This document shows positions 5,673 to 57,546 of a stretch of DNA of 64,000 bases, piece by piece (positions within the stretch are counted from its first letter, which is position 1; every line of letters starts with the position of its first letter). A model generated the notes under the pieces. The model worked only from the letters and a program-made list of their open reading frames with translations. It searched no databases and had not been told where the DNA came from. This DNA is from Halarcobacter bivalviorum (GTDB lineage: Bacteria > Campylobacterota > Campylobacteria > Campylobacterales > Arcobacteraceae), in contig NZ_CP031217.1 in the NCBI RefSeq assembly GCF_003346815.1, positions 2,294,001-2,358,000 on the forward strand. Reading direction: 5' to 3'. The position numbers and the translations under genes were made by a program.

Positions 5673-6672
5673 AAACTCTTAAATTCCTATTTGCAATATT
5701 TTCAATTAATACTGTTGCATACGAACCTTTAGGTAAAGTAAACTTTAAAGTACATTTTGAAGTCTCTTTATTATATGAGATATTAATATCCTTTGGATAT
5801 ACAATTGCATCTCTTCTATACCCTTTTTCTTGAATATAAGTATCATCATATTTCTCTTCAATTTTTCTTGCTTTATTAGTACTTCTAAAAGCATATCTTC
5901 CAGGTAAAAGACCTGTAGGAACTATTTTTCTATTTTTAAAATCTTCAAGTATATTTTCTGTTAAACTTTTAGGAGTGAAGAATTTATCATCTTTATAACT
6001 TCTAAAAACATCTCCTGCTAAAGCTTTAAACTCCTCATTACTATGAGCAAGTCTAGCTACTAACCATTTATTAAAAAAATCACTTTGATAGGCAGAAACT
6101 AACATCTTCGCTAGTTTTCTATCTTTGATAAGTAAATCCCCATAAATATATCTTCTTGCTTTATCTAAGTTTTCTTGGGCATCATGTCCAAATCTTTGAA
6201 AACCAAAATAGTTTGGCATACCAGCTTTAGAAATCTCTTTTAAAAGTTTCTCTATTTTATATAAATCTTCTTCTTTTACTTCATGTAAAGTTATCTCAAA
6301 ACTATTACTTTCCAAATCTCCAATGTTTAGTTTTGTACTATGCAAAAAAGTCTCTTTTATCTCTATTTTGGGATGTCTAAATTTATTTAAATCCTTTGCA
6401 TATTTTCTAGGTATTGATATATATTGAGTTGTTGTTGCATTTTTATCTTTTAATCCTGCATAACCTAACTCATTTTCATAAATTCTTAATCCTTTAGATA
6501 AACTCTCTAATAAATCCCATGTTCCAAGACTCTTTTTCTTTATTTTTGCAATAATAAAATTTCCACGATTTGTAAACTTAATTGGGTTTTCCACAACAAT
6601 GAAATCATCTATATTTTGGTAAAATTTAAAATTAATTGGTTTATGTTTTTGTATAAATTCTCTTTTTATCAT
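5671..6672 (-). CDS. truD: tRNA pseudouridine(13) synthase TruD
   Basis: TruD converts U13 of tRNA(Glu) to pseudouridine. The 333-residue protein carries the catalytic-Asp motif GLKDKNATTTQ near residue 80, the NYFGFQRFG motif near 165, and the TruD insertion segment after it. The C-terminal GSYATVLIENI segment is also typical. It is transcribed alone, diverging from the MazG-like gene across a 62-bp gap. Its stop codon lies inside the shared terminator. Confidence 0.95.
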   Translation of the reverse strand: MIKREFIQKHKPINFKFYQNIDDFIVVENPIKFTNRGNFIIAKIKKKSLGTWDLLESLSKGLRIYENELGYAGLKDKNATTTQYISIPRKYAKDLNKFRHPKIEIKETFLHSTKLNIGDLESNSFEITLHEVKEEDLYKIEKLLKEISKAGMPNYFGFQRFGHDAQENLDKARRYIYGDLLIKDRKLAKMLVSAYQSDFFNKWLVARLAHSNEEFKALAGDVFRSYKDDKFFTPKSLTENILEDFKNRKIVPTGLLPGRYAFRSTNKARKIEEKYDDTYIQEKGYRRDAIVYPKDINISYNKETSKCTLKFTLPKGSYATVLIENIANRNLRV

Positions 6673-53502: not shown

Positions 53503-54585
53503 ATGGCAAAAAGAAAAGTAACAAAAAGAAAAACTACAAGAAAAAAACCTTCTAATATTAAAAATATTAATTTTAAACTAATTAATATCCTTTTATTAAT
53601 AATCCTTGCCCTATTAATTGCAATAGGAGTTCTAATCTATTTAGTTGATGCTAAGAAAGTTGAAAAATCTAAAAAAGAGATTATCAAAATAGAGAAGCAA
53701 ATTAAAGAAGACCTAAATAAAATACAAGAAACAAGTGAAGATAAACTAAACAATTATTTTAAAGATGTAAAAAAAGATGATTTTGAAGAGTATACAGAAG
53801 ATTTATATAAAGAGTATATTCCAGAAAAAACTGAGACTAAAAAAGAACCTATTAAAGAAGATACAAAAAAAGAAGAAGAGACTCTACAAACAGAAGAGAA
53901 ACCTGTATTCCATAAAGCTCTTCCAATAAAAACAAATAAACCTAAATTAGCAATCGTAATTGATGATGTAACTACTACTTATCAAATTAATAAACTACTT
54001 AATGTTGGATATAAAACAACTCTATCAATACTACCTCCTACTTCAAGAAATGGAAGTACTACAGAGATGGTTAAAGATTTACCTTTTTATATGATTCACT
54101 TTCCTATGGAAGCAAAATACTTTAAAGGAGAAGAGCAATATACTCTTCATATTAAAGACTCATATGAGCAAATTGAAAAAAGAGTTGCACAAATGAGAAG
54201 TTGGTATCCAAATGCACAATTTACAAATAACCATACAGGTAGTAAATTTACTGAAAATAAAGAAGCTATGGATAAACTATTTAGAGCTTTAAAAAAATAT
54301 AATTTTACTTTCATGGATAGTAGAACTACAAGTAAAAGTGTAGGTAAAATTATGGCAGAAAAATATAATATGCCATATCTTGCAAGAAATATCTTTTTAG
54401 ATAATGAACAAGATTTTAATTATATTCAAAACCAATTAAAACAAGCAATTAGAATTGCTAAAAAAAGAGGACATGCTATTGCAATTGGGCATCCTTATGA
54501 TATAACAATAAAAGTTTTAAGAGAATCAAAACCCCTACTTAAAGATTTAGAATTAATCTACGTTAATCAACTTCCAAATTTATAA
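53503..54585 (+). CDS. divergent polysaccharide deacetylase-family protein (YibQ type)
   Basis: This 360-residue protein has a strongly basic N-terminus (AKRKVTKRKTTRKKPSN), one membrane helix at about 27-48 (INILLLIILALLIAIGVLIYLV), a charged coiled-coil/linker (about 50-140), and then the divergent deacetylase domain. The domain has PKLAIVIDDVTTTYQINKLL, TLSILPPTSRNGS, FYMIHFPMEA, NNHTGSKFTENKEAM, FMDSRTTSKSVG and AIAIGHPYDI. This is the YibQ family, found in envelope-division contexts. Its 3' end (54535-54585) is duplicated at 56670-56720. From memory the C. jejuni homologue (Cj0633) sits directly between ilvC and dprA, whereas here a 2.1-kb block intervenes. Confidence 0.9.
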   Translation: MAKRKVTKRKTTRKKPSNIKNINFKLINILLLIILALLIAIGVLIYLVDAKKVEKSKKEIIKIEKQIKEDLNKIQETSEDKLNNYFKDVKKDDFEEYTEDLYKEYIPEKTETKKEPIKEDTKKEEETLQTEEKPVFHKALPIKTNKPKLAIVIDDVTTTYQINKLLNVGYKTTLSILPPTSRNGSTTEMVKDLPFYMIHFPMEAKYFKGEEQYTLHIKDSYEQIEKRVAQMRSWYPNAQFTNNHTGSKFTENKEAMDKLFRALKKYNFTFMDSRTTSKSVGKIMAEKYNMPYLARNIFLDNEQDFNYIQNQLKQAIRIAKKRGHAIAIGHPYDITIKVLRESKPLLKDLELIYVNQLPNL

Positions 54586-54587
54586 CA
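54535..54587 (+). repeat. direct repeat, left copy (3' end of the deacetylase gene)
   Basis: This 53-bp sequence starts CTACTTAAAGATTTAGAA and ends AAATTTATAACA. It encodes the last residues of the deacetylase (LLKDLELIYVNQLPNL and stop). It matches 56670-56722 at 51 of 53 positions; one difference is silent and the other changes Val to Ile. Confidence 0.9.
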
Positions 54588-54590
54588 ATC

Positions 54591-54680
54591 TTATAATCTT
54601 TTTTCAAGACCAATAGCTACTAATATTATCAAAGGGATAAAAAAGATAGCCAATTTAATTTTTTCTTTATCAATTTGCAT
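54591..54680 (-). CDS. possible 29-residue single-helix membrane peptide
   Basis: The open frame MQIDKEKIKLAIFFIPLIIL... has a charged N-terminus, one hydrophobic helix (residues 9-25) and the end LEKRL. AGGAAG lies eight bases before the ATG, and the frame overlaps the last codons of the first paralogue gene, so translation could be coupled. The other two paralogues lack the equivalent start. It is too short for statistical support and no family is recognised. Confidence 0.4.
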   Translation of the reverse strand: MQIDKEKIKLAIFFIPLIILVAIGLEKRL

Positions 54681-55290
54681 TTTGATTACTTCCTAATGTT
54701 TTATATTTATCCTCTTGTTCTTTTGATTGGTAGTTTTTAAAGAAGTTTACAACATCTGTTAAAAGTTCTATCATCTCAGATGGATTTCCTCCAAATTTTC
54801 TTGCTCCTTCTTCTAGTCTATTTATTTCATCTTGGAAATAGTTTTTTGTACTTTCAACTGATATAAACTCTTTTTTAGGATTTTTTTGTGAAGGGCCACT
54901 TTCTGTAACATTTCCATTTAAATCTTCAGCAAGTGTATTGTGAAATGACTCCCAAAGGTTTGTACTAATGGACATAAATTTTTTTATATCTAGTTCTGCC
55001 AAATAGTTAATGAATTCACTTTTAGCACTTTGATCTTTTTCAAATACTGAATTTTCAAACCATTTTTCCCCATTTGCAATACCTAGAGCATTATATCTTT
55101 GTAATCCAAGTTGATATTTTTCATCATACTCTTCTTCTTTTGAGTCAGCTTTTGTTGATTTTTCTGCTTTGTAAGACTCAAAGTTTTCTAAAGCACTTGA
55201 AAAGTCGTTATTTGATTGAGTTTTAGAAGTAGAATTATTACTTTGAGTTTGATAGCTTGTATATCTTTGTTGAGTCTCTGTTATATTCAT
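54670..55290 (-). CDS. tandem paralogue 1 of an unknown protein family
   Basis: This 206-residue soluble protein has no signal peptide, membrane helix or cysteine. The first 68 residues (MNITETQQRYTSYQTQSNN..., Ser/Thr/Asn/Gln-rich, then acidic KADSKEEEYDEKY) are almost identical to paralogue 2. The middle differs (LDIKKFMSISTNLWESFHNT; NVTESGPSQKNPKKEF), and the C-terminal 55 residues are again shared (EEGARKFGGNPSEMIELLTD, NFFKNYQSKEQED, YKTLGSN). AAAGGA in the end of gene 2 precedes its ATG, 2 bp after that gene's stop. The function is unknown. The unordered N-terminus could be a secretion signal of flagellar type, but nothing proves it. Confidence 0.85.
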   Translation of the reverse strand: MNITETQQRYTSYQTQSNNSTSKTQSNNDFSSALENFESYKAEKSTKADSKEEEYDEKYQLGLQRYNALGIANGEKWFENSVFEKDQSAKSEFINYLAELDIKKFMSISTNLWESFHNTLAEDLNGNVTESGPSQKNPKKEFISVESTKNYFQDEINRLEEGARKFGGNPSEMIELLTDVVNFFKNYQSKEQEDKYKTLGSNQNAN

Positions 55291-55292
55291 TT

Positions 55293-55919
55293 TTAATCCT
55301 TTGAAAATAAAGGTGGATTATTATTTCCTAATGTTTTATAGTTATCCTCTTGTTCTTTTGATTGGTAGTCTTTAAAGAAGTTTACAACATCTGTTAAAAG
55401 ATTAGTCATATATGATGAATCTCCTCCAAATTTTCTTGCACCTTCTATAAGTTCGTTAAGTTCATTTTCAAAATAATTAATTGTACTTTCTATTGAAAAA
55501 AACTCTTTTGAAGGGTTTTTTTCATATTTTCCAGATACTATATTTCCATTTTCATCCTCCATTAATTTAGCTCCCAAAGATGAATGAAGTTTTCCATTTA
55601 TTAACATATAGTCCTCTACTGGCAAATTAGATAGATAGTTAATAAATTCATTTTTAGCATTTTGATCTTTTTCAAATACTGAATTTTCAAACCATTTATT
55701 CCCTCCATCTTGAAAAGCATTATATCTTAGTAATCCAAGTTGATATTTTTCATCATACTCTTCTTCTTTTGAGTCAGCTTTTGTTGATTTTTCTGCTTTG
55801 TAAGACTCAAAGTTTTCTAAAGCACTTGAAAAGTCGTTATTTGATTGAGTTTTAGAAGTAGAATTATTACTTTGAGTTTGATAGCTTGTATATCTTTGTT
55901 GGGTCTCTGTTATATTCAT
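55293..55919 (-). CDS. tandem paralogue 2 of an unknown protein family
   Basis: This 208-residue protein shares the N-terminal 68 residues with paralogue 1 except one (Leu for Gln in GLLRYNA) and the conserved block KWFENSVFEKDQNAKNEFI. Its centre (NLPVEDYMLINGKLHSSLGA; MEDENGNIVSGKYEKN) is its own. The C-terminus is EGARKFGGDSSYMTNLLTDV, then NNPPLFSKD as in paralogue 3. The same AAAGGA ribosome-binding site is reused, lying in the last codons of gene 3. No catalytic motif is visible. Confidence 0.85.
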   Translation of the reverse strand: MNITETQQRYTSYQTQSNNSTSKTQSNNDFSSALENFESYKAEKSTKADSKEEEYDEKYQLGLLRYNAFQDGGNKWFENSVFEKDQNAKNEFINYLSNLPVEDYMLINGKLHSSLGAKLMEDENGNIVSGKYEKNPSKEFFSIESTINYFENELNELIEGARKFGGDSSYMTNLLTDVVNFFKDYQSKEQEDNYKTLGNNNPPLFSKD

Positions 55920-55921
55920 TT

Positions 55922-56557
55922 TTAATCCTTTGAAAATAAAGGTGGATTATTACTTCCTAATGTTTTATAGTTATCCTCTTGTTCTTTTGATTGGTAGTCT
56001 TTAAAGAAGTTTTTAACATTTGTTAAAAGATCAATTATATACGATCGATCTCCACCAAATTTTCTTGCACCTTCTATAAGTTCGTTAATTTCATCGTTAA
56101 AATAGTTTATGGCACTTCCAATTGATGAAAATTCTTTTGCAGGGTTTTTTTGAGCTGAGCCTTCTTTTGTTATAGCATTTCCCTTTCCATCAGGAATAAG
56201 TTCTAAATCAGCAAAAGAATTCATAAAATTTCCATTTAAAAACATATAGTCATCTACTGACAAGTTAGATAGATAGTTAATAAATTCATTTTTAGCATTT
56301 TGATCTTTTTCAAATACTGAATTTTCAAACCATTTATTCCCTCCATCTTGAAAAGCATTATATCTTTGTAATCCAAGTTGATATTTTTCATCATACTCTT
56401 CTTCTTTTGAGTCAGCTTTTGTTGATTTTTCTGCTTTGTAAGACTCAAAGTTTTCTAAAGCACTTGAAAAGTCGTTATTTGATTGAGTTTTAGAAGTAGA
56501 ATTATTACTTTGAGTTTGATAGTTTGTATAAGTTTGATATTTAGTACTGATTTCCAT
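55922..56557 (-). CDS. tandem paralogue 3 of an unknown protein family
   Basis: This 211-residue protein is the first gene of the array as transcribed. Its N-terminus differs at the very start (MEISTKYQTYTNYQTQSNN) and then joins the common sequence. The centre (DYMFLNGNFMNSFADLELIPDGKGNAIT, partly shared with paralogue 2) and the C-terminal EGARKFGGDRSYIIDLLTNV are followed by NNPPLFSKD. AGGA six bases before the ATG and TATACAAT/TATACT elements in the 112 bp upstream indicate a promoter for the whole array. The function is unknown. Confidence 0.85.
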   Translation of the reverse strand: MEISTKYQTYTNYQTQSNNSTSKTQSNNDFSSALENFESYKAEKSTKADSKEEEYDEKYQLGLQRYNAFQDGGNKWFENSVFEKDQNAKNEFINYLSNLSVDDYMFLNGNFMNSFADLELIPDGKGNAITKEGSAQKNPAKEFSSIGSAINYFNDEINELIEGARKFGGDRSYIIDLLTNVKNFFKDYQSKEQEDNYKTLGSNNPPLFSKD

Positions 56558-56669
56558 TATTTATCCTATTTTGAAATAATAGTATATTGTATAATCTTAA
56601 ACATTAAAAATAATATTAGATGTAATATATTATCATAGATATTTATATTTTATGACTTACAAATATAAA

Positions 56670-56722
56670 CTACTTAAAGATTTAGAACTAATCTACATTA
56701 ATCAACTTCCAAATTTATAACA
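56670..56722 (+). pseudogene. displaced 3' fragment of the deacetylase gene (right direct repeat)
   Basis: This copy of the last 16 codons and stop of the deacetylase gene (51 of 53 bases identical to 54535-54587) has no gene body before it. The codons still read LLKDLELIYINQLPNL and stop. It lies 53 bp before dprA, where the intact gene would be expected from C. jejuni gene order. It is probably the original gene end, pushed away when the 2.1-kb block came in. Confidence 0.85.
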
Positions 56723-56775
56723 TTTTTTATTATTCATGAAGTTTATTTTTTATATTATCTTTTAAAAGGTTTATA

Positions 56776-57546
56776 ATGATAAATAAAATTGAATTTAAAA
56801 TTAATGAACTGAACTCAATGAAAAGCTACCCAAAAGAACTATTTTATATTGGTAATTTAAAATTACTAAAAAAAAGAAAAATAGCCATGGTAGGCTCAAG
56901 AAAACCTAATTTATATGCTCAAAAGATGACTCACCTTCTAGCAAGTGGACTTAGTAAAAGAGATATGACTATTGTAAGTGGTGCTGCTATTGGCGTTGAC
57001 AGTATTGCCCATAAAGCTGCTGGAGCAAAAAATAGTATTGCAGTTGTTGCAAATGGTTTAGATATAAGATATCCTGCTATAAATAAAAAACTTATTGAAG
57101 AGATTGAAAAAGATGGCTTAATGCTTAGTTCTTATAAAAAAGGTGAGAAAGCAAGGGTATATACTTTTATTGAAAGAAATGAACTAGTTGTTGCTTTAAG
57201 TGAGATTCTTATTGTAACTTATGCAGATGAAAATAGTGGAACTCTTAGCTCTATTAATTATGCACTTAAAATGGGCAAAAAAGTCTATACTATACCCCAT
57301 AGATTAGAAGAGAGTAAGGGAACACAAAAACTACTTGATGAAGGTCTAATTACTCCTATTCATTCAATTGAAAAATTTCTTAACAGTTTCGGAGAAGAGA
57401 AACAAAATGATAATGCCTTTGAAAAATACCTAAAAACTTTTCCTACTTATGAAGATGCGGTAAGTAAATATGCAAGTAAAATTTTTGAACTTGAATTGGA
57501 AGGTAAAATTAAAATAGAAAGAGGATTTATTAAACCCCTTTTCTAA
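56776..57546 (+). CDS. dprA: DNA-processing protein DprA
   Basis: DprA loads RecA on incoming single strands during natural transformation. The 256-residue protein has a Rossmann fold with AMVGSRKPNLYAQKMTHLLA near 37-56, IVSGAAIGVDSIAHKAA near 74-90, FIERNELVVALSEILIVTYADENSG near 135 (shown in family form FxxRN...; here RNE replaces the more common RNR), and ALKMGKKVYTIPH. It is shorter than typical DprA, with a reduced C-terminal winged region. It overlaps the converging nhaA gene by 4 bp. Confidence 0.9.
   Translation: MINKIEFKINELNSMKSYPKELFYIGNLKLLKKRKIAMVGSRKPNLYAQKMTHLLASGLSKRDMTIVSGAAIGVDSIAHKAAGAKNSIAVVANGLDIRYPAINKKLIEEIEKDGLMLSSYKKGEKARVYTFIERNELVVALSEILIVTYADENSGTLSSINYALKMGKKVYTIPHRLEESKGTQKLLDEGLITPIHSIEKFLNSFGEEKQNDNAFEKYLKTFPTYEDAVSKYASKIFELELEGKIKIERGFIKPLF

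Follow-up and report, generated by a model that had tools for sequence, protein, structure and literature searches.

A duplicated deacetylase gene end brackets a probable foreign insertion between dac and dprA in Halarcobacter bivalviorum

The window analysed here, a stretch of 64,000 nucleotides of the H. bivalviorum genome (assembled as a single 2.68 Mb contig), contains a small array of related genes lying between dac, which encodes a divergent polysaccharide deacetylase, and dprA. The features of the locus are as follows.

53503..54585, plus strand: dac, divergent polysaccharide deacetylase (PF04748, Pfam E 1e-60), the 3' end of which is the target
54535..54587, plus strand: left repeat copy, comprising the last 16 codons and stop codon of dac plus 2 bp
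54591..54680, minus strand: truncated fourth gene, a 29-codon ORF beginning MQIDKEKIKL...; full-length relatives have 238-250 codons
54670..55290, minus strand: paralogue 3, 206 amino acids, no known family
55293..55919, minus strand: paralogue 2, 208 amino acids, no known family
55922..56557, minus strand: paralogue 1, 211 amino acids, no known family
56670..56722, plus strand: right repeat copy, read as the displaced native dac 3' end, running on into spacer like that of the empty sites in congeners G008, G009, and G010
56723..56775, plus strand: native dac-dprA spacer, aligning with the spacers of empty sites
56776..57546, plus strand: dprA (PF02481, Pfam E 8e-55)

The insert is not distinct in base composition (27% GC, against 26% for dac and 29% for dprA). 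Neither the ORF list nor Pfam revealed an integrase or recombinase ORF between 54588 and 56669, no transposase is present in the insert, and no terminal inverted repeats were detected at its ends (p 0.19).

The initial annotation had reported a 53-bp direct repeat covering the 3' end of dac and recurring before dprA, and both the positions and the identity of the copies (51 of 53) are confirmed. The copies begin 2135 bp apart, with 2082 bp between them, and their boundaries are abrupt, flank similarity being no more than expected by chance (upstream p 0.91, downstream p 0.30). Searching the whole genome with the repeat returned two strong matches only (E 2.5e-25 and 6e-19; next best 0.02). In a 458-kb sample (17%) of this chromosome, every other near-identical pair inspected falls in the coding sequence of paralogues, and the repeat at 54535/56670 is the sole pair seen there that links a gene 3' end to a gene-less copy. 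An ATG upstream of the right copy opens a 22-codon ORF (56652-56720; MTYKYKLLKDLELIYINQLPNL) that reads into the copy, probably by chance. Elsewhere in the genome, at G000:C1:2426088-2430520, short codon repeats of serine/aspartate type (TCTGAATCAC..., GTATCTGTGTC...) form a long tract, probably a repetitive surface protein gene.

Comparison with relatives identifies the ancestral arrangement. The dac gene is present in all 15 congeners, with 57-82% identity where full length, and in seven of these (G008, G009, G010, G005, G006, G002, and G012) the dac-dprA site is empty, with a single 3' end and 59-65 bp from the dac stop codon to the dprA start. Among 15 genomes looked at from other genera of the family, 13 have dac and dprA adjacent, the exceptions being G080, with an inverted dprA, and G084, with approximately 1.2 kb between the genes. 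Together with the empty congener sites, this indicates that adjacency is ancestral. The inverted dprA of G080 (L104) leaves the dac end approximately 27 bp from the dprA 3' end. Two congeners show other disturbances of these genes: in G006, dac is apparently frameshifted some 40 codons before its end (L045, approximately 5717-5720; two tblastn segments in different frames), and in G010 the dprA match extends only to codon 133, beyond which lie minus-strand genes (L043:2958-8470), so that dprA is apparently interrupted. By eye, these minus-strand genes have the look of a defence island (ThiF/E1-like, JAB-like, and nuclease-like).

An alignment of the right copy plus the next 53 bp with the empty G008-G010 junctions extends as far as dprA and scores 139, the null mean being 59. 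Its continuation into spacer homologous to empty sites identifies the right copy as the displaced native end. The left copy completes dac, to which it is fused, and gives way to foreign sequence. The two copies differ from each other at two of 53 positions, whereas the empty sites of the nearest relatives differ from both at 8-13 of 53, which places the insertion later than those splits. The earlier proposal that about 2.1 kb entered at the dac 3' end and pushed the old end rightward is supported by the empty sites and the native-like right copy. Single-copy relatives, which it had predicted, were seen in the seven congeners, so the double end is not a feature of all relatives, and the right copy, having no sizeable gene attached, is not part of a functional gene.

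The insert consists chiefly of three tandem minus-strand paralogues of 206-211 amino acids, the second and third 70-79% identical to the first. No family in Pfam, NCBIfam, or PHROGs matched them, and their structure model was weak (pLDDT 63) with no significant match in the PDB. Relatives occur in only seven of 104 genomes of the family, in four of 20 genera, and none was found in plasmids, phages, or IMG/VR. Some of these relatives share 66-73% identity between genera, and window copies 1 and 2 cluster with copies of two other genera (support 99/97) and not with most copies of a congener. The sporadic occurrence of the family argues that the block was very probably acquired laterally, and lateral spread likely accounts for the distribution of the paralogues. 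Congener G007 carries six tandem copies at approximately 630-bp spacing (L055:2928-6671) and two more single copies elsewhere in its genome. In the window, the first 180 bp or so of the three paralogues (54670-56557) are nearly identical and the remainder diverges, a pattern suggestive of recent amplification or gene conversion.

The left edge of the insert is informative. In genomes of two other genera (G051 and G091), a paralogue is followed by a gene for a 238-250-amino-acid protein starting MQIDK. In the window this gene follows paralogue 3 and breaks off after approximately 24 codons, near 54609 and about 22 bp from the repeat; the match of the fragment has E 7.6e-5 (66% over residues 1-29). 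The left edge is therefore a broken gene and not the terminus of an intact element. No full-length copy of this partner gene was found in IMG/VR.

The same site has received other DNA. With one genome taken per species, dac-dprA is occupied in nine of the 16 genomes of the genus (the window and eight of 15 congeners), the eight others having 0.47-6 kb between the two genes. Cargo at these sites includes genes for histidine kinases and response regulators, for a molybdopterin oxidoreductase, for an EamA transporter, and for a CMAS-type methyltransferase, as well as GNAT, AraC, and LysE genes and small ORFs, most cargo genes facing dac. Only G014 and G015 share cargo, G004 and G011 having just response-regulator similarity; the other cargo, which the initial annotation had suggested looking for, is nearly all different. 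Pfam searches of the window genes and nine cargo proteins identified transporters, regulators, and enzymes; neither these searches nor inspection of the smaller ORFs by eye revealed integrase or mobility genes in the cargo. Of the neighboring intervals, dprA-nhaA is open in a single genome in which both genes are visible, and ilvC-dac remains closed. With the same conserved flanks, differing cargo, and no mobility genes found in that cargo, dac-dprA fits the description of an integrase-free insertion hotspot. Such hotspots are commoner in transformable species, and ones driven by recombination in the flanking core genes are known (PMC5635113).

A clear duplication of the dac 3' end was seen at none of the eight other occupied congener sites, where a degraded old copy is possible. 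An att-like repeat signal in G007 scored 33 (null maximum 29), uncorrected for its being the best of seven queries and with part of it being the stop region of a LysE gene, and a displaced dac tail in the right flank of G004 is suggestive only (p 0.02, uncorrected). In G004 and G011, dac tails are replaced at nearby positions without clear duplication.

We propose, with a probability of about 0.5, that a foreign fragment was captured at dac-dprA by recombination that was either one-sided homologous or illegitimate, probably following natural transformation. The donor would have been a linear piece of foreign chromosome carrying the paralogue array and the first part of the gene that follows it. 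It may have come with a dac 3' end of its own, from a strain whose site already held the same cargo, or have been circularised with one. Homologous recombination within dac would join the left side, and the right side would be closed upstream of the resident 3' end, either by an illegitimate join or by a single crossover of the circle. The outcome would be two copies, a replacement end on the left and the resident end on the right, with ordinary chromosomal DNA between them. Natural transformation is the likely route of entry, since the genome encodes dprA and comEC and the family includes a naturally transformable member, Aliarcobacter butzleri (PMC8308473). In Escherichia coli, experiments have produced both one-sided homologous integration and single crossovers leaving duplications of 109-950 bp, although one-sided events usually delete recipient DNA rather than duplicate it (PMC3240628).

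Capture is supported by the single-copy empty sites in seven congeners, the native-like right copy, the patchy paralogues, the truncated fourth gene, and varied cargo in which no integrase was found. Against it, 53 bp would be a short tract for a crossover within the repeat itself, and an integrase element would likewise leave a repeat whose end falls 2 bp beyond the stop codon. No donor with the same cargo beside dac was found among the sequences searched; the left copy may represent the dac end of a donor, and of its two differing bases one is common to other relatives, so that it is not clearly a donor allele. We also looked for a donor tract in the identity profile of ilvC-dac against G008-G010, where identity fell to 77-79% over the final 120 bp of dac; the drop coincides with the gene end, and no clear mosaic was apparent.

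The nearest rival, which we consider possible but unlikely, is a purely illegitimate insertion at a staggered or resected break, or by template switching, with 53 bp of target duplicated by fill-in. It dispenses with a donor dac copy, accounts for the broken edge gene, the missing inverted repeats and integrase, and the near-identical copies, and agrees with the replaced dac tails of G004 and G011, but it requires a 53-nt overhang or a switch that happened to end 2 bp past a stop codon.

A site-specific integrative element, decayed or moved in trans, with recombinase-mediated crossover inside the 53 bp and a replacement 3' end brought by the element, is improbable. This was the type of event to which the initial annotation likened the locus, and it would account for a direct repeat running from within the gene through its stop codon, the restored gene, and the displaced native end; six tyrosine recombinases in the genome score above the cut-off. 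The insert edge, however, is a broken gene, neither the insert nor the congener cargo examined contains an integrase, and the eight other occupied sites lack a clear duplication. The repeat occurs nowhere else in the genome, and the proposed search for a phage or integrase by means of it was negative: neither repeat nor dac end was found in plasmids, phages, or IMG/VR, and a 131-bp stretch holding the left copy matched no phage or plasmid record. Recombination after natural transformation, offered originally as an alternative, fits better. It is very doubtful that the dac 3' end is a true attachment site for undescribed integrase-less elements mobilised in trans, which would spread varied cargo, together with a replacement gene end, through the genus, older repeats having eroded beyond recognition elsewhere. 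Transposition or assembly error has nothing beyond the direct repeat itself to recommend it and is scarcely credible, given that target duplications made by transposases are usually far shorter than 53 bp, that transposase and terminal inverted repeats are lacking, and that the copies differ by two bases and have different flanks within a single contig.

Capture of a foreign fragment, the reading we prefer, makes the locus a well-preserved and informative example of a known process. Both edges of the insert are legible, in the displaced native end, the replaced end, and the broken cargo gene, so the route of capture is testable with few strains. The locus also carries a caution: a duplicated gene 3' end is by itself no proof of an integrase.

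Three known systems invite comparison. Integrative elements that insert at protein-gene 3' ends bring a replacement 3' end, displace the old one, and leave direct repeats, all of which have counterparts here, but the present locus has a broken edge gene and no integrase, and the other filled sites show no clear repeat. Homology-facilitated illegitimate recombination and single-crossover integration of partly degraded DNA likewise join a foreign insert at a homologous segment, and single-crossover products include partial gene duplications as here, of 109-950 bp in the laboratory against 53 bp in this genome; the classical process deletes recipient DNA, whereas here the end is duplicated and the donor is not among the sequences searched (PMC3240628). 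Integrase-free hotspots between core genes resemble dac-dprA in their differing cargo, conserved flanks, and lack of integrase or transposase, although they were described among strains of one species and ours extends across species of one genus (PMC5635113). Such hotspots are common, the join is seldom so readable, and in contrast to them one dac-dprA site keeps a duplicated gene end.
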